A stretch of DNA of 64,000 nt from Palleronia salina (GTDB lineage Bacteria > Pseudomonadota > Alphaproteobacteria > Rhodobacterales > Rhodobacteraceae), in the NCBI RefSeq assembly GCF_900141995.1, contig NZ_FQZA01000005.1, positions 1 to 64,000 of the forward strand. The letters run 5' to 3'. Positions 45,546 through 62,427 of this stretch are shown piece by piece. The first letter of the stretch is position 1. Each line of letters opens with the position of its first letter. The position numbers and the translations under genes are program-made. Under the pieces are notes generated by a model. It ran no database searches, was not told where the DNA came from, and worked only from the letters and a program-made list of their open reading frames with translations.

Positions 45546-45598
45546 TTGACAACGGCGTAGCGGCAAGATGAATTGAACCTAAATTGGGTTCAGGAGAG
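45546..45598 (+). promoter_or_regulatory. Promoter and palindromic operator between the XRE gene and the 45609 gene
   Basis: TTGACA (45546-45551) is followed 17 bases later by TGAATT, a plausible sigma-70 -35/-10 pair. GAACCTAAATTGGGTTC (45575-45591) is a near-perfect 17-base palindrome with one mismatch, placed over the likely start of transcription. AGGAGAG (45592-45598) is the ribosome-binding site of the next gene. The layout fits repression by the adjacent XRE protein. Confidence 0.55.
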
Positions 45599-45608
45599 TG
45601 GTGCGAAC

Positions 45609-46235
45609 ATGAACAGTGGCGATACGATTGAGATGCTGATCCGGACTGATCGGTCCGTTCACGAAGCGAAGCGAGCAGTGTTGCGAGAGTTTATCACGGA
45701 TGCCGTAGGGCGGCGGTTGATCAGGCGCTTGCTTGATAGCCCAGCCGTCCGACCTCTCATGGAACTCAAGTTGAATGGGTGCACTTCCTATCGGGCTGCG
45801 AGGTATCTTGCCGCAGAGGAACTGGTGAGAATTGAGGAGTTTAAGGCTCGTCCTGCTCCATTTAGGAGGCGTGAGTGCGAGGCAATTGAAATCTCTTCGC
45901 TTGGAGAGGTTCTCTTGGCGGAAGAGCAAGAGGGACTTGACGAAAATCGGTGGATGTCGATCTTGCGAAGCTCGATTGTTGCCTATTCCTGCATTGACGA
46001 CGGAACTGGAGTTTGTGGAACCCGTGCATTCATCGAGACATCTCTCGAACTTCCTGATCCAGACATATTGAAGCGCTTGGTTAGGGTGTGGGGCGGAGAT
46101 CGACAGTTTCCGGAAGCGGCCACTATCAGCCACAAAATCGACGATGAGCAAAGAGCCGGCGCCGCCCATTGGTGGTCCGATGTGCCCAAGTTGAAAAGAA
46201 GCGGGCGAATAGTAGAGCTATGCTATCCGGATTAA
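45609..46235 (+). CDS. Uncharacterised protein of the island (XRE-linked)
   Basis: I do not recognise this 208-residue protein. It begins MNSGDTIEMLIRTDRSVHEAKRA and is mixed charged, with no signal peptide or membrane segment. It contains an Arg-rich helix (GRRLIRRLLDSPAVRPLM) and a Trp-rich end (GAAHWWSDVPKLKR). ATG 45609 is chosen because AGGAGAG lies 11 bases upstream; a start at 45573 would bury that site. Its codon use is less GC-rich than that of the core genes. The divergent XRE gene and shared operator suggest a regulated pair. Confidence 0.6.
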   Translation: MNSGDTIEMLIRTDRSVHEAKRAVLREFITDAVGRRLIRRLLDSPAVRPLMELKLNGCTSYRAARYLAAEELVRIEEFKARPAPFRRRECEAIEISSLGEVLLAEEQEGLDENRWMSILRSSIVAYSCIDDGTGVCGTRAFIETSLELPDPDILKRLVRVWGGDRQFPEAATISHKIDDEQRAGAAHWWSDVPKLKRSGRIVELCYPD

Positions 46236-46383
46236 ACAGCGTGCCCATCACGATGCAGCCGACCATTGCAAGCATCAGCGACAGGTAGATGGAGCCTCCG
46301 GAGAGCGACAGGAGAGAGCCCGCGAACTTCAGCGCAAGTTTAGAGTCCGCATCCGCCGCGAGAAAGTTGGGTAGCATGTTCCC

Positions 46384-46656
46384 ATGACAGAAGCTGACGA
46401 CGCATACCACCTACCTAAGGACGTAGCGACACGGATATCTGGGCTCGGCATCACCGGCGTGGCCCACCGGGAGACAGTCAAGATTTTGTATGCGGTGCGG
46501 ACGTGGACCGGAGACACAGACGCGGCGTTCGAGTGGTTCTCTGAACGGCCTCTGCCGTCGTTTGGCGGCCGGACCGCGGCCGACCTCGCGCGGGAGGGAC
46601 GCACGAATGCAGTGAAAGCCTATGTCGAACGTGTCGGAGCGGGAGGGTTCGCATGA
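46384..46656 (+). CDS. MbcA/ParS/Xre-type antitoxin C-terminal domain protein (DUF2384-like), orphan
   Basis: The 90-residue product carries the pattern AFEWFSERPLPSFGGRTAADLAREGR, typical of the toxin-binding C-terminal domain of Xre/MbcA/ParS antitoxins. The usual partner is a RES-domain toxin, but none follows: a 13-codon frame starting at the overlapping ATGA (46653) stops at 46694. It may be an orphan antitoxin or what is left of a toxin-antitoxin operon. Confidence 0.65.
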   Translation: MTEADDAYHLPKDVATRISGLGITGVAHRETVKILYAVRTWTGDTDAAFEWFSERPLPSFGGRTAADLAREGRTNAVKAYVERVGAGGFA

Positions 46657-47302: not shown

Positions 47303-49897
47303 CTACGATATTGTTTCTGTCACTTCGTGAAGCTCCGTTCGGCCGATGATGGCATCGAAGCCGCCTACTCTCTCTGGGAGATCCTGTCCTCCAGCATAGA
47401 TCAAACTTGCTTCCTCAAATCGCTTGAAAGCGAAGATGGCTGCATTCATCACTTGGCTGTTGAAGACGCCGATCTCGCACAGGGTGCGGAAGTCCTTGAC
47501 CTGGAGTCCTGTCACCCGCGTGAAGAGCTGGGGTTCGATGTTCTGGATGACATCGACAAGAGTCGCTTCCCGATGATCCGTGAGATACATGAAGACGGGA
47601 ACGCGCGTCACAAACTTCAGCAGCTTCTCCCTTAGTTCCTTTTTGAACCCTCTGTTCTTCTTGTCCTCGTCCTTCGTCTCCTTCGTGTCGAGCTTGCCCT
47701 TTTCCTTCTTCACCTGGTTCAGGGCTTTCTCGGACGAAATCACCTTGGTAAGATCCTTCCCGAGGGACCGGAAGGCTTCGATCCTCTCCAAGGACGCCAG
47801 CAGGGTAGCGTTGTTCAGGATGCGCTCGAGAGCATCGTTGTCTACGTTGACCATCCTTGCAGACTGCCAGCGCTTTGCCAGCATCGTCGAGGCAATACCC
47901 GAAACTGCGTAGTCCAGAAGCTGCTCCGCGTTCAGCGGATGCATGTGAAACCCGTCGTAGCAGAGCACGGGGAGGAAGTGGATGAAGTCCGAAACCTTCT
48001 TTTCCACGCTCGCTTCCGTTGAGCCGATGTCGATGCGGCTGTTGTATTCCGCGATCAGGTTCAGGGCCCGCGACGGCGCGAAATCGAAGATGTAGCACTT
48101 GTGCTTGAGGATCTCTTTCCGCTTCGGGTCCAGCCCATCTCGGTTAGTAAGGGACCAAGGCGTCTGGACGCGGAACGCCGCTTGGAAATAGCTCTCCGGA
48201 CTGGAGGTACTTCTGAGCATAAAAATACCAGACCATGGCGCCACAGAGACGCCCGTCGTCAGCTTGCCGCAGCTCAGCGTGATCGTCTTCGTGTCGACAC
48301 CCTTCCCGATTGCGTCTCTTACGGGCTTGATCGCCTCGAGGCCCATTCCGGCATCCGATCCGGCGGCGACGATCACTCTGTAGTCATGGAAGAACACATT
48401 CTGCTCCTGCCCGAGAAGGAGCTTCATGGCCCGGCAGGACGCAACTGAGGGCATGAACCAGAAGGTGTGGGTCAGATGTCGCTGGAGGCGAACATCCTCG
48501 AACGGCACCGGCGGCTTCACATGGTCTTCGCCTGCGACGAGGTTCGCAGGCATGTATTTGCCGCGAATGAGGTGCAGCCAGTCCTGCACGGCATTCTCAT
48601 GGATGAACCGGTATGTCTCGATTCCATCCTCAGCCTCTTCGGCGGGAACCTTCTCGGCACGGAAGAATTCGTTGAGATCGAATTCGTTCTGTTCTCCCTT
48701 CAACGCGACTTCGCGGATCGCGTCAGGCATCTGGTAGGTCATGAGAACCATCTGCGGGAGCTCGGCGTAGGGGTTCGGGCCGCGCTTGTTCTCGTCCCAG
48801 GCCTCCTTCGCGCGCTGCTCATCGGCGTAGGTCCAGTTGTAGATCTGATCCTCAAGAAACTCCCCGGACCCGAGAGCCCGGAAAGGTGTGCCCGACAGAT
48901 AGAGGAAGTGCGCGACCGAGAGGGGAAAGGTCTCCTCGGAAAACGCCTGGGCGGCATCTTCGTCCTTTTTCGCTGCGTCGGATTCCAAGTCGCTTTCCGC
49001 CAGATCGGCGTCGTAAAGATCCTTTGCTGCGTCGCGCCATGCTCCGAAGTGGTATTCGTCAAGTATGACACAATCCCAGTCGATCAGGTGCGCTGCCTCG
49101 AACCTCGGCTTGATCTTGCCGTCGGCAGTGCGCCCGAGAATGTCCTGGAAAGATGCGAACCAGACAATCGGCCGGTTATCGTCCATGTCCTCATAGTTCT
49201 CATCTCGGCTCAGAAACTGCCATCCATCGAAGTCGACGTGGCTCTCCAGATCTTCCCGCCAGGCGTCTGCAACGGCCGGCTTGTAGGTGAGCACCAGGAC
49301 CCGCTTCCATCCCATCTCCTTGGCGAGCTGGTAGGATGTGAAAGTCTTGCCGAACCGCATCTTGGCGTTCCAGAGGAAATGAGAAGCACGCCGATCGCCG
49401 GCGCCGTTCTTGCTCTCGCTCTGTGCCCTGAAGTATCGAGCCGTAGCTGAGACGGCAGCTCTTTGCTCGGGTCGCATGTCGAAATCTTGATGCCGCCCTG
49501 ACGTGGTTGTCCGCTGGCCAGTCTTGATCTCGATCAGTGCCTCCTTGACGTCCTCTACGGTGCACTCGAACCACTCACCATTGACGCGCCGGACGCCCTT
49601 CTTCTCGAGCAGCTTGTGAACAGATCCGTCGCGAAAGAAGCCTCGATCATCCGTGACTGCTTGGTCTTCAAGGAGGATGGTAAACGGTTGCTTCTCAGGG
49701 GTTGCAGTTGGGAACTGCTGCCAAATTCGATCGACGACCTCCTTTTCGGTGTAGCCGACCTTCAACAGGCCAGTCCCCTCTCGAGATCCTGTCCATGGTG
49801 TGTCGCTGTAGTGCGGCGTCGTATAGGCGTAAATCTTCGGCACGCCGATCCGGCCGAAGTACCTGCTCTCCTCCACCCTGGAATCTCCGTCCATCAC
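47303..49897 (-). CDS. GIY-YIG nuclease-DEAD/DEAH helicase fusion (restriction-type)
   Basis: The 864-residue protein starts with a GIY-YIG domain of the T5orf172/MUG113 kind, about residues 18-125: KIYAYTT, LKVGYTEKEVVDRI (Arg57) and GEWFEC (acidic residue near 108-111). A superfamily-2 helicase follows, with motif I AKMRFGKT (178-185), motif II ILDEYHF (278-284) and a motif VI-like FQAAFRVQTPW. It is the last gene of a minus-strand operon behind two methylase genes, 9 bases after the second. It would cut unmodified DNA after ATP-driven translocation, as in Type I/III/ISP enzymes. The nuclease family differs from the PD-(D/E)XK nucleases usual in those systems. Confidence 0.8.
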   Translation of the reverse strand: MMDGDSRVEESRYFGRIGVPKIYAYTTPHYSDTPWTGSREGTGLLKVGYTEKEVVDRIWQQFPTATPEKQPFTILLEDQAVTDDRGFFRDGSVHKLLEKKGVRRVNGEWFECTVEDVKEALIEIKTGQRTTTSGRHQDFDMRPEQRAAVSATARYFRAQSESKNGAGDRRASHFLWNAKMRFGKTFTSYQLAKEMGWKRVLVLTYKPAVADAWREDLESHVDFDGWQFLSRDENYEDMDDNRPIVWFASFQDILGRTADGKIKPRFEAAHLIDWDCVILDEYHFGAWRDAAKDLYDADLAESDLESDAAKKDEDAAQAFSEETFPLSVAHFLYLSGTPFRALGSGEFLEDQIYNWTYADEQRAKEAWDENKRGPNPYAELPQMVLMTYQMPDAIREVALKGEQNEFDLNEFFRAEKVPAEEAEDGIETYRFIHENAVQDWLHLIRGKYMPANLVAGEDHVKPPVPFEDVRLQRHLTHTFWFMPSVASCRAMKLLLGQEQNVFFHDYRVIVAAGSDAGMGLEAIKPVRDAIGKGVDTKTITLSCGKLTTGVSVAPWSGIFMLRSTSSPESYFQAAFRVQTPWSLTNRDGLDPKRKEILKHKCYIFDFAPSRALNLIAEYNSRIDIGSTEASVEKKVSDFIHFLPVLCYDGFHMHPLNAEQLLDYAVSGIASTMLAKRWQSARMVNVDNDALERILNNATLLASLERIEAFRSLGKDLTKVISSEKALNQVKKEKGKLDTKETKDEDKKNRGFKKELREKLLKFVTRVPVFMYLTDHREATLVDVIQNIEPQLFTRVTGLQVKDFRTLCEIGVFNSQVMNAAIFAFKRFEEASLIYAGGQDLPERVGGFDAIIGRTELHEVTETIS

Positions 49898-49906
49898 CTT
49901 TACCCC

Positions 49907-51460
49907 TTAACTGACTTGTGCCGTGACCGGCTCGCGTGGCGGCATCTCGTGCACGGTATACTCGATGAAGGCGATCTCCTCCTCGTTCAGTCCGTAGCGT
50001 TCATATAGGTCTTCGTCCGTCCAGGATCGGTCGAGCGGAACCATTGGGATGAACGCATACACATCTTTCGATGCGTGCTGCGCCGGTTTCCGTAGAGAGA
50101 CAAGGAAGCGCGCGAAGCGCGTTCTCAGAAGGCTTGCGCAGTTCTCTGCAGTTTCTCGGTCGGGAAAGACCCCGGCCACGATGTATGTCTCACTGCAGGC
50201 TTCCCCGGGCCCAGAGATTATCGGATTGCTTAGAAACTTTGTCTCGATGGCCGCGCTCGTCCCTTGAACGGCCGACATCAAGACCTTCCACTGATCGATC
50301 GCGGGTCGATTTTGCGTGATTTCGTCTCGCTCAACCCAGGTGGTCCGCTTTGAGCCATAGAAGCGGACAGGGTCGTTGAGGCCGTCTGCTTTCGCTTTAC
50401 CATGGAAGTTCGTTCTCAAGCCGAACGGTTTCGAGCTCAGAACCATGGTATCGAACGTGCCTTCGGCTTCTCCCCCGACACGATAGGCCTTAACTTTCTC
50501 CAGAACTGATACGGCTTCGTTGCGCCGTATCAGGACATCATACTGATCGAGATAGCGGGACCGGGCATCGCCGACCTGCTCTCCGTCCCAGAGGGTCCGC
50601 ACGGTGCATGCCCCATCATACTCGCGGTCCCACAGGAAATAGCACACACCACCCCTGATCTTCACTCCCGGGAAGGCGTCGAAAAGCTTCGGCATGTCGA
50701 CAAGTTCGCGCATCCGGTGATCCTTCAGCATGGACGCACGGAAGCCGTCGAGGCCCTTCCCACCGGAATACCAGCGTGCGGGGATGATCATCGACAAATA
50801 TCGGGGTTTGAGGGCCTTCGCACGTTCAACGAAAAGGTGGTAGATCGGCGACGCGCTCGCTCCGTATCCATCATCCTTGAGCTGATAGGGCGGGTTGCCG
50901 ATCACGACGTCGAATTTCATTGCTTTCACCTTTTTCAGCGGGAGGTGGATGAATTGGTAGGCGTGGTTTTCGAGGTGCTCACCTCGGTCAAGACTTCCTT
51001 CCGGCGCTCCGCAGTGAATGCACCGGCCGGATCTGTATTCGTGGGTTCCCCGTTGAAACTGAATGTTTCCTTGAGGATTATTGAAGGGGACGATCGACCA
51101 CTCAGTTGTAGCGTCCTTCGTATAGTAGACGCTTCGCCTCGAGATCATCGCGGTGAGCTCTGTGATGGCAATGCCGAACAACATGTTTCGAAAGACATGT
51201 TCGCGTCGAGCGTCTTCGTCTGGTATTGCCTCGGAAAGGCCGGCCATCAAGCGCTTGGCAGCTTCGCGAAGGAACACCCCCGACTTCGAGCAGGGGTCAA
51301 GGATCTTGATCTCCGGATTACTCCAGAGCGAGTCTGGAAGCAGATCCAAAACTTGGTTTGCCAGAGCAGGCGGCGTAAAAACTTCGTCCGAGCTCAGGTT
51401 GGCGATGCAATCCAGAATATCGGGTTGACGCAAGGGCGCCAAGATACCGTCTGCTATCAT
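49907..51460 (-). CDS. Adenine-N6 DNA methylase, Eco57I-like, with target-recognition region
   Basis: The 517-residue protein has motif X EVFTPPALANQVLDLL near residue 26, motif I DPCSKSGVFL at 55-64 and the catalytic motif IV NPPY at 189-192. The order X-I-IV and the NPPYQLKD context fit gamma-class Eco57I/Type ISP methylases. A CxxC pair (RCIHCG) is near residue 148. Residues from about 220 to the end have no catalytic motif and probably recognise DNA. It overlaps the upstream small methylase by ATGA and is followed by the helicase/nuclease gene. Confidence 0.85.
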   Translation of the reverse strand: MIADGILAPLRQPDILDCIANLSSDEVFTPPALANQVLDLLPDSLWSNPEIKILDPCSKSGVFLREAAKRLMAGLSEAIPDEDARREHVFRNMLFGIAITELTAMISRRSVYYTKDATTEWSIVPFNNPQGNIQFQRGTHEYRSGRCIHCGAPEGSLDRGEHLENHAYQFIHLPLKKVKAMKFDVVIGNPPYQLKDDGYGASASPIYHLFVERAKALKPRYLSMIIPARWYSGGKGLDGFRASMLKDHRMRELVDMPKLFDAFPGVKIRGGVCYFLWDREYDGACTVRTLWDGEQVGDARSRYLDQYDVLIRRNEAVSVLEKVKAYRVGGEAEGTFDTMVLSSKPFGLRTNFHGKAKADGLNDPVRFYGSKRTTWVERDEITQNRPAIDQWKVLMSAVQGTSAAIETKFLSNPIISGPGEACSETYIVAGVFPDRETAENCASLLRTRFARFLVSLRKPAQHASKDVYAFIPMVPLDRSWTDEDLYERYGLNEEEIAFIEYTVHEMPPREPVTAQVS

Positions 51461-52074
51461 CTACCCAGCTCCCAGTAATTTTTCATAGGAGTTTCTTCGA
51501 TCGATGGAGGACCCCGCCAATCGAATCTCTCCGATTCCATCATGTCCGACAGCCTGAAGGTGCGCTGCTGGAACTTATTGATCTTCGGAGATGAGAACTC
51601 CACGAAGGTTATGGAATCTGCACCGTTAAGCATATCGCCGACGCAAATGTTGCGCTGCAGAATATATTCGATCGCATTACCGAAGCCCTCGGTCTGCCGC
51701 GCAGTATTCAGGTGCGTGGAGTAGAAATCGACCATGACCATCTTCATGCGCTCTCGGGCGTCTCGTATGTTATGGCCATCGATATCTACGCCGTAAATCG
51801 ATGAAAGTGCCTTGAGACTATTGAATTCGAACGGCTTAGTCTTTTTGTGACGACGAAATACGGTTCTCAGTTTTCTCTGCAAAATGGCAACAAGGAAGTT
51901 TCCGTTGCCGCAGCTGGGCTCAAAGAATCTGGCCTCGATACTCGAGGCACTATCAGCCACCAGATCAAGCATGGCCTCGACCTCACGCTCTGCAGTGAAG
52001 ACCTCTGCGAGGTCTCGAACGCGGTCCCGTCCTCGGGTCTCGAGAACGGGCAGGTGGGCAAACTCGTCGTTCAT
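51457..52074 (-). CDS. Small methylase-like protein with SAM motif but no NPPY
   Basis: The 205-residue protein has an EVFT-type motif X near residue 24, motif I FEPSCGNGNFL at 51-61, YGVDIDGHNI (motif II) and NICVGDML (motif III). It lacks the catalytic NPPY/DPPY. It looks like a SAM-binding half domain, parallel to the N-terminal part of the next gene. It may be a second methylase subunit or a regulator. The stop overlaps the next ATG by ATGA, so the gene is intact rather than truncated. It is the first gene of the restriction-like operon. Confidence 0.75.
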   Translation of the reverse strand: MNDEFAHLPVLETRGRDRVRDLAEVFTAEREVEAMLDLVADSASSIEARFFEPSCGNGNFLVAILQRKLRTVFRRHKKTKPFEFNSLKALSSIYGVDIDGHNIRDARERMKMVMVDFYSTHLNTARQTEGFGNAIEYILQRNICVGDMLNGADSITFVEFSSPKINKFQQRTFRLSDMMESERFDWRGPPSIEETPMKNYWELGR

Positions 52075-52148: not shown

Positions 52149-52592
52149 TCACGTGGTTGGATGCCCGCCAAGGTGGCTGAGGTCGATCACTCGTTGGGCA
52201 TAAGGGGTCTTGGAAAGGATGTTAAGGAACCGACGGTCTGCGGTGACGAGCTGGCGATCCATGCGCTCGGCAAGCGCAAGGTAGACGCAATCGTAGATCG
52301 GGTGATCGATCTCCAAGGCGAGTTCCAGGGCACGTCGCTCCAGAAGCTCGTCGGCGTCGATGATCGTCACCGGTGCCGTCTGCAGAAACAGGAAGAGATC
52401 GATCGCGCGCTCGTCCGGCGGGATTTGCTTCGCGGCGAGGGTTCGAAGGACGTTGCCGGCCTCGATCCGGAAGAGGGCGGGCGCGACCATGTCAGCCCCC
52501 TGGAGGAGTTCTGCCTTGTCGCTTCCCTCTTCGTCCACGATCCACTTGATTGCGACGGAGGTGTCGACAACGAAGCTCTCACCCGCTGTCAT
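52149..52592 (-). CDS. vapC: VapC-type PIN-domain toxin
   Basis: The 147-residue PIN ribonuclease has the acidic residues in FVVDTSVAIKW (Asp10), RIEAGNVL (Glu44), IYDCVYLALAE (Asp) and LVTADRRF (Asp). VapC toxins cut tRNA or rRNA. Its start overlaps the antitoxin gene by ATGA. It follows the usual antitoxin-first order. Confidence 0.88.
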   Translation of the reverse strand: MTAGESFVVDTSVAIKWIVDEEGSDKAELLQGADMVAPALFRIEAGNVLRTLAAKQIPPDERAIDLFLFLQTAPVTIIDADELLERRALELALEIDHPIYDCVYLALAERMDRQLVTADRRFLNILSKTPYAQRVIDLSHLGGHPTT

Positions 52593-52831
52593 GACGCTTC
52601 GTCGCGATCACGATCCGCGCGGAGGATCTCCGTCGTGGTCGGAGCCCCTGGGGCCAGCTTCACGCGTCTGGCGCGCGCCTCGGCGAAGAAGTCGGCCCTG
52701 TGGCCGGGGCGGAGGGCTTCCTCGAGGATCCTGCGATGCTCCGCCTCTGCGGATCGCCCCGCTTTCGCCGCCCGCTCCTTCAGGGCCGCGGCGATCGCAT
52801 CGTCGACATTTCGAACGGTGAGTTGTGCCAT
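52589..52831 (-). CDS. FitA/VapB-like ribbon-helix-helix antitoxin
   Basis: The 80-residue protein starts MAQLTVRNVDDAIAAALKERA, a FitA-type RHH domain, then AEAEHRRILEEAL and a C-terminal tail (APTTTEILRADRDRDE) that would wrap around the toxin. ATG 52831 is chosen because the RHH strand begins there; longer starts add unrelated sequence. It represses its own operon in known systems. Confidence 0.85.
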   Translation of the reverse strand: MAQLTVRNVDDAIAAALKERAAKAGRSAEAEHRRILEEALRPGHRADFFAEARARRVKLAPGAPTTTEILRADRDRDEAS

Positions 52832-52913
52832 GACGCATCCTGATTGCGAAATGATGGCACTATGAAGGCAAGCCGCGGATCTGACAAGCTTCGTTATGAC
52901 GGCCGGTTTGCCA

Positions 52914-53120
52914 TCATTGGTTCGGACATGCGCCTTCAACCTTGATCCCGGTGCCCTCAAGAAGATGGTAGGGGGCATTCCGGACCACGGCTTCAATATC
53001 GACCTTTGGTCGATCATCCTTTGGTTCTCGCATCATGAGGAAGCCCATGATCGTCACCAGCAGACTGTTCCCGACGATGGTGCCGGTGAGAATGACTTCG
53101 GTGCTGAATATCTCGGTCAT
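52914..53120 (-). CDS. Small membrane protein coupled to the exonuclease gene
   Basis: The 68-residue product has one membrane segment (VILTGTIVGNSLLVTIMGFLMM), then a charged cytoplasmic tail (REPKDDRPKVDIEAVV). The start overlaps the exonuclease stop by ATGA, which supports translation. The family is unknown. A small membrane protein paired with a nuclease is reminiscent of phage-defence or toxin pairs, but this is only an architectural likeness. Confidence 0.5.
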   Translation of the reverse strand: MTEIFSTEVILTGTIVGNSLLVTIMGFLMMREPKDDRPKVDIEAVVRNAPYHLLEGTGIKVEGACPNQ

Positions 53121-57434: not shown

Positions 57435-58361
57435 TCACTGCCAATCGATTTGTGCTTCAGGGCCGCTCGAGGGCCCTTTCTCTACAGCGACGTCTCTTTC
57501 TCTGAGGATAGGCGCCCCCGCCGATGCCCCGTCCATCTTCAGCGCCAGCCCCGCAAAGTCCCAAAGCTTCGGATCGAGAAGATGCGACGGCCGCGCGTTC
57601 ATCAGCGCGCGGAACATCACCTGGCGGCGCCCGGGGGAGTTCTTCTCCCACTGATCGAGGATCTGCTTGACCTGCTGGCGTTGCAGCCCGTCCTGGCTGC
57701 CGCAGAGATCGCAGGGGATGATGGGGTAATTCATGGCCTTGGCGAACTTTTCGCAATCGGCTTCGGCCACGTGGGCCAGAGGGCGGTAGAGAAATAGGTC
57801 GCCTTCCTCGTTCACCAGCTTTGGCGGCATGGTCGCAAGGCGCCCACCATGAAAGAGGTTCATGAAAAAGGTTTCGAGGATGTCGTCGCGGTGATGACCC
57901 AGCACGACGGCGTTGCAGCCTTCCTCGCGCGCAATGCGGTAGAGGTTGCCGCGCCGCAGCCGCGAGCAGAGTGCGCAGTAGGTCCGCCCCTGCGGGACCT
58001 TGTCTACGACGATGGAATAGGTGTCCTGGTACTCGATTCGGTGCGGCACGCCCATCCGTTCGAGGAACTTGGGCAGCACCGTCGCCGGGAAGCCGGGCTG
58101 CCCCTGGTCGAGGTTGCAGGCGAGAAGGTCTACCGGCAAAAGGCCACGCCACTTCAACTCGATAAGGATCGCCAAAAGCGTGTAACTGTCTTTTCCGCCA
58201 GACAAGCAAACAAGCCAGCGCGCACTGCTGCCTTCCACCATGCTGTATTGTTGAACTGCTTCGCGAACGTTGCGAACTATCCGCTTGCGCAGCTTTCGGA
58301 ACTCCGTCGTCTGCGGAGCACCCTGGAAGATGGGATGTATGTCATCGAGATCATCGGTCAT
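57435..58361 (-). CDS. ttcA: Full-length tRNA 2-thiocytidine synthetase TtcA (second copy)
   Basis: The 308-residue enzyme thiolates C32 of some tRNAs. It has the PP-loop SGGKDS at 54-59, the Fe-S/thiolation cysteines C129-x2-C132 and C217-x2-C220, and the family N-terminus [22 protein letters not shown] (read in parts). ATG 58361 gives the standard start. From Tyr60 to about residue 272 it aligns with the truncated copy at 44304-44966, with scattered substitutions such as LPVDLL for LPVEIL and KVPQGRTYC for KVPEGRTFC. This copy is expected to supply the function lost by the disruption. Its C-terminal 35 residues differ from the truncated copy. Confidence 0.92.
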
Positions 58362-60480: not shown

Positions 60481-62427
60481 TTAAAGTTGGGCGGCGATCC
60501 GGTTGTCTCGCTGGCCATTGTCTGACTTGGCGCGCGTGAGTGTAAGCCAGTCTCCGAAGCCAACCTCGCGTCGCTCGGCCGCTGGCGGACGGCGCACTGC
60601 GACGTCAAGTGCCCGCCGGTCGCCAAGGAAAATCACCTGTTCCTGGGCGCGCGTCAAAGCTGTGTAAATCATTGAGCGGTCGAGAATTCGACTCGCGAAC
60701 ACTGGCACGATCACCCGCTGCCATTGTGAGCCTTGGGCCTTATGGACGGACACCGCATAGGCGAGCTGAAGGAAAGAGCCATCTATCGGCGCGAGTTCAT
60801 GCACGTTTCCGTCGAGATTTGCCGTGATGCTGTCGGACCTGACGCGTAGAATTCGACCCATAGAACCGTTCGTCAGTCCGCGATCAGCATCGTTTCTTGT
60901 CCAAATAACTGGTTCGCCCTCGGCCACGTGGGCCGTCCTTGGCCATGCGACCGGTCGACGTTGCATCGCAAGACGGTGGAAATAGCCGTTTATTGCCGCG
61001 ATGTCGCGGTTCGTCGGCGCGATAATCTGGACATCGTCACGCCCCATCCCGGATTCGGCAAGAACTCGGCCAATAGCGTGGATCGCGGCGGTCAGCTTGT
61101 TCTTTTCACAAGGCGTAAAGGTGACGCCGCTTTGCGCTCCCTCGAAGGTGGAGAGAGTTTTCAGTGTGCCATTGCGTACGCCTTCGGCGAGCGCCGGGAT
61201 GCCGGTGGTCTCGTCTTGGCGGTGCACGCGATCAAGGATCACACGGGCTACTTCATGGTCGGTTGCGAGTTGATGGAACACGATGCCTGGGGTGACAGGG
61301 GGCAGCTGCGCGGGGTCGCCGCACAGGAGGAGCGAAGCGTCTCCGATACGCCGTAGGATGCGCCAGAGTTCCACGAGACCCAGCATCGACGCCTCGTCTG
61401 CTATCAGTGCCGTGTTCGCGCTGAGTGGGCGGTCAGCCTCAAGCAGGAATCGCGTGACCGTGATCGCTCTCCGGGATGTCGCCTCAGCAGCACGCTTAGC
61501 GGCACGTCCAGATAGGGTCACAATGAGGGGCCTGCGCCCAACTGCCTCCATAGTTTCGCAGACTCCACGCAACACGGTCGTCTTGCCGGATCCGGCGTAG
61601 CCCGCCAGAACCATAAGCCGGTGTCGGTGGGACATCCGAACTGCCTCGCGCTGCGCTTTTGTCAATGGGAACGGCTGGCCCGCTTCATAGGCTGCAAGCA
61701 AGGTGTTTAACGTGGCGGACGGCGTGACACCCAAAACCGGCCGAGCCGATGAGAGGCGCGTGAGCTTGAGGGCGCATTCGGCTTCCATATGTGCCGTCCC
61801 TGGGGGTTGAAGCGTGTCAGCAAACCGAGCAGCCCCGCCTGAAGCCACGGCCGCCTGGGCCGCTCCGGCCGCGGCTGGGCGACCCAACAGGTGCGCTGCG
61901 GCGCAGAGAACTCGTTGCACGGTCAAGCGTGTTGAGCCCACACCAAGACACGCATCGCCTGTTAGCACAGCCTCTACGGCTGCCGCGTCTCGGCGCGTGT
62001 CACTGTCATCTATTCCGAGCGAACGCGCTATCGCGTCGACGGCCTTCCAACTGGTCACCGACAGCAGGAGGTAGGGATTCTGACGCACCGCTTCGATTCC
62101 CTGCGGTCCCCACGCCCGGGCGAGCCGGATTGCATTGGCGGTGGGTATTTGGGCGCCAATATCGTCAAGCCAAGAAAGGAGAGCAACTTCAGATTGTCGC
62201 GCTTCCATTGCCGCTGCCGCTTCTATGGCAGGTTCTTCGCCGACGATCTCTATTACGCGCTTGTCGAGTGCGAGGATTGCTGCCTGTAGGTCGTCCCCTA
62301 AAGCTTCGGCGAGAGCAGCGGCACGCCGGGGCCCGATGCCCCGGAAGGTCCGGTCGCTTGCTATATACGTTGCGAGCAGGCTGGTCTCGCTGGGCAGGCC
62401 CGTCGCAACCAAGTCAACTTGCTTCAT
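60481..62427 (-). CDS. RecD2-like SF1 helicase
   Basis: The 648-residue protein has an N-terminal HhH (FRGIGPRRAAALAEALG, about 28-44), a RecD2-type middle, Walker A GYAGSGKTT at 276-284, Walker B ALIADEASML near 345, the QLPPV block (motif III) and YAVSVHKAQGSQW plus YTALTRAQEQVIFLG near the end. It unwinds DNA 5' to 3' in known relatives. It overlaps the coiled-coil gene upstream by ATGA, so it is the last gene of the recombinase-linked operon and may act in element transfer or maintenance. Confidence 0.85.
   Translation of the reverse strand: MKQVDLVATGLPSETSLLATYIASDRTFRGIGPRRAAALAEALGDDLQAAILALDKRVIEIVGEEPAIEAAAAMEARQSEVALLSWLDDIGAQIPTANAIRLARAWGPQGIEAVRQNPYLLLSVTSWKAVDAIARSLGIDDSDTRRDAAAVEAVLTGDACLGVGSTRLTVQRVLCAAAHLLGRPAAAGAAQAAVASGGAARFADTLQPPGTAHMEAECALKLTRLSSARPVLGVTPSATLNTLLAAYEAGQPFPLTKAQREAVRMSHRHRLMVLAGYAGSGKTTVLRGVCETMEAVGRRPLIVTLSGRAAKRAAEATSRRAITVTRFLLEADRPLSANTALIADEASMLGLVELWRILRRIGDASLLLCGDPAQLPPVTPGIVFHQLATDHEVARVILDRVHRQDETTGIPALAEGVRNGTLKTLSTFEGAQSGVTFTPCEKNKLTAAIHAIGRVLAESGMGRDDVQIIAPTNRDIAAINGYFHRLAMQRRPVAWPRTAHVAEGEPVIWTRNDADRGLTNGSMGRILRVRSDSITANLDGNVHELAPIDGSFLQLAYAVSVHKAQGSQWQRVIVPVFASRILDRSMIYTALTRAQEQVIFLGDRRALDVAVRRPPAAERREVGFGDWLTLTRAKSDNGQRDNRIAAQL

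Follow-up and report, generated by a model that had tools for sequence, protein, structure and literature searches.

The closest characterised system to the operon described here is DrdVI, carried on a 15.5-kb plasmid, pDrdVI, of Deinococcus wulumuqiensis NEB 479. The M1-2.DrdVI genes have been cloned and expressed, and N6-methyladenine (m6A) was mapped at GCAGCC (PMC6430315); the authors class DrdVI as a Type IIG enzyme with the designation "M1-2". The passage available from a further source terms DrdVI a fused translocase and restriction endonuclease, gives no assay, and assigns a relative to GIY-YIG (PMC4996451). The M1-M2.MaeIV pair of Methanococcus aeolicus has also been expressed and places m6A at GCACY (PMC10113651). 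A related layout is found in the Type ISP enzymes LlaGI and LlaBIII, which, in the part of the source available, comprise a nuclease, a superfamily 2 (SF2) motor, a methylase and a DNA-recognition domain (PMC4666363). Here we analyse a stretch of 64,000 nucleotides from Palleronia salina (contig NZ_FQZA01000005.1, positions 1 to 64,000; hereafter the window), which carries three genes, M1, M2 and R, at 47303–52074. This operon is a new member of the already known DrdVI-type split-methylase family.

Plasmid pDrdVI carries counterparts of all three genes, similar in size and arranged in the same order; their identities to the window are 48% for R (95% of the query covered), 46% for M2 and 35% for M1. 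In both, M1 and M2 are adjacent, and the window R, which has a GIY-YIG domain and an SF2 motor, is homologous to that of DrdVI. MaeIV is set beside the window by description, not by sequence. The window copy lies in a genomic island on a 253-kb contig, whereas the DrdVI copy is plasmid-borne. For the DrdVI R, Pfam gives ResIII and no T5orf172 at E 0.01; the GIY-YIG residues still align with those of the window R. In the target-recognition domain (TRD) region, M2 residues 301–480, only 66 of 178 positions are identical to DrdVI, so the window enzyme probably recognises a target other than GCAGCC. The best match to this region among the sequences compared was that of a Sulfitobacter locus (L020), at 70%.

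All three genes are open frames on the minus strand, forming a compact operon transcribed in the order M1, M2, R. M1 (51457–52074) encodes 205 aa, M2 (49907–51460) 517 aa, and R (47303–49897) 864 aa. A 4-bp overlap (ATGA) joins M1 to M2, and 9 bp separate the M2 stop from the start of R, a GTG codon directly followed by ATG. The host genome has a single copy of R, and the operon is real and intact-looking. A preliminary description had proposed three overlapping or near-touching genes here: a protein with an S-adenosylmethionine (AdoMet) motif but without NPPY, an Eco57I-like methylase with NPPY and a probable TRD, and an 864-residue GIY-YIG/SF2 helicase. Each of these points was borne out; the methylase is of the gamma type for adenine, and the three genes are found together elsewhere.

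M1 appears to be the AdoMet-binding half of a methylase, with motifs X, I, II and III. Its motif I reads FEPSCGNGNF, of which EPSCGNGNF (residues 52–60) lies at 51895–51921, and the window M1 has no match to [DNS]PP[YFW]; the Pfam model MmeI_Mtase matched it with a score under the cut-off. M2 is an Eco57I-type methylase (Pfam Eco57I, 115.5 bits against a cut-off of 25.3). Its N-terminal half (residues 1–180, 50921–51460) resembles a degenerate AdoMet-binding half, hereafter the pseudo-half, and its C-terminal half (residues 181–517, 49910–50920) contains the NPPY motif (residues 189–192, 50885–50896) and the TRD.

The motifs kept by M1 and M2 are reciprocal across the family. We counted motifs in sequences covering at least 75% of the respective model, leaving out loci L001–L008, L018 and L019. 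In M1 (the window and 84 others), both motif-I glycines (GxG) are kept in 85/85 sequences, and the motif-II place holds D or E in all 85. An NPPY-like motif, sought in the same sequences, occurs in 0/85, so the idea of M1 as a full methylase in its own right, acting on the other strand, is rejected. M2 has NPPY in 87 of 88 sequences and NPPF in the remaining one. Its first motif-I glycine is replaced by a lysine (K59 in the window, 51284–51286) in 88/88, and its motif-II place (98) is A, G, S or P in all 88, an acid in none. Neither place falls within the search patterns used for M2, PD[IV]L[DT]C.. and LS[NS]DEV[FP]TP. The motif-I glycines, motif-II acid and NPPY that together mark a class I N6-adenine methylase complete in one chain are thus divided between M1 and M2. 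By their motifs, the two appear to be reciprocal half-methylases with complementary losses, which suggests a methylase that may be built from two half-enzymes, the methyl donor held in one and the active site in the other. The preliminary description had called the role of the half without motif IV unclear; it can now be explained as that of the putative AdoMet-binding half.

An inactive site would be expected to drift, yet the M2 lysine stays fixed. In a pattern check of M2 frames on viral contigs, kept apart from the alignment and restricted to those above 300 bits (n = 35), the lysine was present in 35/35 and NPPY in 34/35, the remaining frame being a fragment. The lysine is also kept in 7/7 proteins in which R and M2 are fused and in a divergent Legionella M2. 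For a control, Eco57I-family loci were sampled from 120 genomes, giving 28 proteins from 27 of 30 loci. Two of the 28 are themselves M2 (both with lysine, one being the window's own); the other proteins with a recognisable motif I have glycine in 16/16, and 10 more were unreadable, a class that takes in degenerate motifs since the control pattern requires the second glycine. Between motif II and NPPY, M2 also carries an insertion with CxxC and a later histidine (residues 147–172, about 50945–51022), a possible metal site, in which C147 is kept in 87/88 sequences, C150 in 88/88 and H172 in 88/88.

R begins with a nuclease domain (residues 22–124, 49526–49834) that matches the Pfam models T5orf172 (34.4 bits, cut-off 20) and MUG113 (24.9 bits, cut-off 22.3); T5orf172 also matches 40 of the 45 chosen R sequences in our alignment (A6) at E 0.01. 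Residues Y23, K46, G48, R57 and E108 are conserved in 80 of 81 relatives, the remaining row (L021) being without the N-terminal part. We take T5orf172 to be a member of the GIY-YIG clan and the Tyr, Arg and Glu to have its catalytic roles; with this profile match and these residues, R is a predicted GIY-YIG nuclease. The SF2 helicase-like motor follows at approximately residues 139–615 (48053–49483), as placed from the DrdVI alignment, ResIII, PHROG and motifs. No Pfam helicase model is listed for the window R itself at E 0.1; ResIII matches 42/45 members of the alignment, PHROG 16 (DNA helicase) matches R, and 80 or all of the 81 relatives have the Walker A GKT, DEYH, SGTP and, in the last motif, Q and R. 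DUF4145 matches two members of the 45-row alignment.

The three genes travel together. Scanning species-representative genomes with the M2 profile gave at least 587 related stretches, and in the best 80 of these M1, M2 and R were all present in 74, spread over many phyla, which places the set far beyond chance. Five of the other loci are without R and one without M1; in five of these six, less than 700 bases of contig remain on the missing side, and the sixth (L069) shows no R over 3277 bases. With starts chosen by script, M1 overlaps M2 or lies no more than 5 bp from it in 67 of 79 loci. All three genes were found in 31 of 38 IMG/VR loci, a count that retains near-identical contigs, and R used alone as the query of a viral scan brought up no relative. 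Searching from R instead, we obtained matches in 8 of 244 genomes of the host's order, the host included, and an M2 match adjoins R in 8/8. A tblastn search of plasmids with R returned 79 records, 13 of which cover at least 80% of R, pDrdVI among them. One exception is an R at L015:4944-7499, on the Corynebacterium plasmid pCRULAC2, with no M1 or M2 match in the stretch; it adjoins transposon and streptomycin-resistance genes. Where gaps between M1, M2 and R exceeded about 250 bp, the inserts were inspected by eye; the inserted genes, which we take to be toxin-antitoxin, DUF1016-like and antirepressor-like, look like passengers. The gene set, its domains, the kept and missing motifs and the co-occurrence are shown at the level of sequence.

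Six gene arrangements were seen besides that of the window. In the first, on seven retrieved plasmids of the Gram-positive Enterococcus, Lactococcus, Staphylococcus and Lactobacillaceae, R is fused to the whole of M2 in chains of 1417–1480 aa, giving the ISP-like order nuclease, motor, methylase, TRD, with the pseudo-half between motor and methylase and M1 separate. The M1 beside these fusions was recognised by profile in L206, L208 and L018, weakly in L164, and by motif I in L161–L163. The fused proteins of L161, L162 and L163 have an extra part of about 150 aa N-terminal to the GIY-YIG domain. In the second arrangement, R is fused to the pseudo-half and the NPPY half is separate (Arthrobacter L207, Lactiplantibacillus L019 and Treponema L205); L207 and L019 have an M1 or M1-like gene upstream, and the upstream side of L205 is cut by the end of the record. 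In the third, the fecal phage contig L201 has four frames in the order M1-like, NPPY half, R, pseudo-half.

The other three arrangements are the strongest evidence for a partnership between M1 and the NPPY half. Gp277 of Tenacibaculum phage PTm1 is an NPPY half alone, a stand-alone counterpart of the M2 C-terminal half with NPPY at residue 9, and gp279, two genes on, is M1-like; no R and no pseudo-half were found in the 9-kb stretch, and in a viral scan gp277 matched only PTm1 itself. Fusobacterium phage FNU4_28 joins an M1-like half and then an NPPY half in one chain. Gp077 of Aeromonas phage Ah1 runs in the reverse order, NPPY half, TRD-like part and M1-like half (EPSCGDGNI), which is the motif order of the beta class; its last part scores 47.2 bits against M1 and 14.4 against the pseudo-half. 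The Ah1 protein (L199:2434-3681) is annotated as hypothetical and has similar matches in other Aeromonas phages. A separate pseudo-half was sought in the fetched PTm1, FNU4 and Ah1 stretches and none was found. These forms point to M1 and the NPPY half as partners, with the N-terminal half of M2 as an add-on. A small gene in L200, which scores 40.7 bits against the pseudo-half and 24.9 against M1, was excluded as evidence.

We consider it probable that the operon encodes a three-subunit, ATP-dependent restriction-modification system of the DrdVI type, in which M1 provides AdoMet, M2 catalysis and target recognition, and R cleavage. M1 would bind AdoMet, and M2 would supply the NPPY catalytic half and the TRD. 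The M1-AdoMet complex would join M2 at a short asymmetric site and place m6A on an adenine of one strand. R would be recruited through the methylase to an unmodified site, which its SF2 motor would leave or remodel before the GIY-YIG domain cuts. The N-terminal part of M2 may be a degenerate copy of M1's fold, no longer able to hold AdoMet in the usual manner, and its most likely role would be to couple the methylase to the motor. In this scheme, we infer the composite active site, the coupler role, cleavage and the dependence of cleavage on ATP. Marking of one strand, as suggested by the asymmetric motifs of relatives, would leave unmarked sites after replication, so a two-site or orientation rule is expected; the source, in the part available, makes this argument for one-strand marking in Types ISP and III (PMC5737866).

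The preliminary description had read the operon as a Type ISP enzyme split into subunits, with GIY-YIG in place of the PD-(D/E)XK nuclease. The layout and the replacement stand: the operon shares the nuclease, SF2 motor, methylase and DNA-recognition domain with Type ISP, the fused relatives have the same nuclease-motor-methylase-TRD order, and m6A of relatives at asymmetric sites fits the two-site rule. The simple split does not. Type ISP enzymes are single polypeptides with an N-terminal Mrr-family nuclease and no M1, according to the available part of the source (PMC4666363), whereas the operon has three genes, a T5orf172/GIY-YIG nuclease and the additional M1, which also accompanies the seven R-M2 fusions. 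In a search of PDB sequences that had no positive control, neither LlaBIII nor LlaGI was matched by the profiles of R and M2 or by one fused form. The view of a Type ISP enzyme merely cut up is not supported, and a Type ISP-type reading of the operon in a wider sense seems unlikely; the comparison suits layout, not ancestry as far as tested. The two could nevertheless share a working principle even if phylogeny sets them apart.

Alternatively, R could cut at a fixed distance like a Type IIG enzyme, without translocation, and use ATP only for release from the site. The listing of DrdVI as IIG by its authors favours this, as does CglI, which in the source text available cuts near its site in an NTP-dependent manner. 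We find the alternative doubtful, as the SF2 motif set of R is complete and DrdVI has been called a translocase, if with no assay in the passage cited above. Type IIG enzymes combine nuclease and methylase in one chain without an ATP motor; in the window, the genes are separate and R has an SF2 motor. Two PADLOC models match parts of the operon: positions 178–674 of PDLC03626 (REase_MTase_IIG, 1359 positions) match R and 1009–1359 match the NPPY half of M2, and PDLC03375 (MTase_II, 348 positions) matches the NPPY half alone, whereas the window has separate genes plus M1. TaqIII was considered as a possible relative and ruled out, since the source, in the part available, gives it as a single-chain Type IIC/IIL enzyme.

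A further possibility is that M2 is a complete methylase on its own and M1 an accessory pseudo-methylase for folding, DNA binding or regulation. AlphaFold models M2 (pLDDT, the predicted local distance difference test, 87.3; 81 sequences) with a methylase-like fold and a further C-terminal region, and Foldseek places CamA (best E 2e-17), BrxX and M.TaqI among the best 50 of 775 matches. CamA, BrxX/PglX and M.TaqI, which have this fold in common with M2, each consist of one chain that has an AdoMet site of its own, and M.TaqI tolerates a non-glycine residue near the place of the motif-I lysine. M1 (pLDDT 89.3; 78 sequences) is predicted as the first half of a methylase sheet only, with three strands (named by our own assignment) and helices, plus a hairpin, past which nothing in the model resembles the motif IV half. 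We judge a self-sufficient M2 to be distinctly unlikely. Its motif-I lysine and missing motif-II acid are invariant while M1 keeps the glycines and the acid, and PTm1 pairs a bare NPPY half with an M1-like gene while two phage proteins join these halves without a pseudo-half. A natural fusion of M1 to M2 was sought in the 80 genome and 38 viral loci and none was seen, and M1 and M2 were therefore folded separately.

Several observations weigh against the composite methylase or against cleavage by R. The chief one is the complete look of the M2 model: M2 alone is modelled as a whole methylase-like chain with a confident N-terminal half, which may fill the position expected for a docked M1. M1 itself finds weak Foldseek matches (best E 0.01, to CamA), with LlaGI and LlaBIII among the lower rows. 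Weak, too, are the M1 matches of PTm1 (36.6 bits), L201 (42.7), L019 (39.7), L164 (39.0) and FNU4_28 (22.7–25.0), and motif I reads EITCGEAPY in PTm1, L201, L019 and FNU4_28, against EPACGxGNF, so the M1-like halves of these four are distant relatives. L201 has R together with a pseudo-half and thus gives no example of an NPPY half working without one. Among R-attached pseudo-halves the lysine is kept in two of three, that of L207 having T. Finally, methylation by the M1 and M2 pair is already published for relatives, but the literature searched, some of it available in part, contained neither a cleavage assay nor a structure for any DrdVI-type family member.

Decay of the operon, or a modification-only role with restriction lost, for which the fragmented, inactive Bibersteinia trehalosi copies of a DrdVI-like system (in the source text available) offer a precedent, is highly improbable given that all three window frames are open and have the family's catalytic residues.

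The paired halves also allow a more speculative proposal, which we consider unlikely to hold: M1 and its inactivated twin, attached to M2 here and to R elsewhere, might be exchangeable and compete to dock on one face of the NPPY half. If so, docking of M1 would permit methylation and docking of the twin would give a restriction-competent, motor-coupled state, a built-in switch between modification and restriction.

The operon lies inside an island of about 23.8 kb, from 44968 to about 68.75 kb of the contig. On the left, the sequence runs collinear with that of a congener (L154) as far as 44968, and the congener sequence resumes at about 68.75 kb. The insertion falls close to the 5' end of a PP-loop (ttcA-like) gene, a second copy of which lies inside the island at 57537–58193, with 89% identity over query residues 6–224 of 228. 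At the right end are two tyrosine-recombinase-like genes, one above and one just below the Pfam cut-off. Directly upstream of the operon, 52149–53017 encodes a PIN-domain protein and a FitA-like ribbon-helix-helix antitoxin. On the other side, 45573–46656 is possibly a toxin-antitoxin pair, in which an Xre/MbcA/ParS-type antitoxin domain (46384–46656) adjoins a 220-aa frame without a Pfam match. The island further holds a RecD2-like helicase (60481–62427), with a full-length match at 30% identity in one congener; elsewhere in the genus it has only short, weak matches.

The DrdVI-type family is large, spans many phyla and is carried on plasmids and islands. Reciprocal motif loss would explain, simply and testably, the retention of both methylase genes, and the natural occurrence of separate, fused and permuted forms makes the family well suited to studying how a class I methylase can be divided and newly coupled to a motor nuclease.

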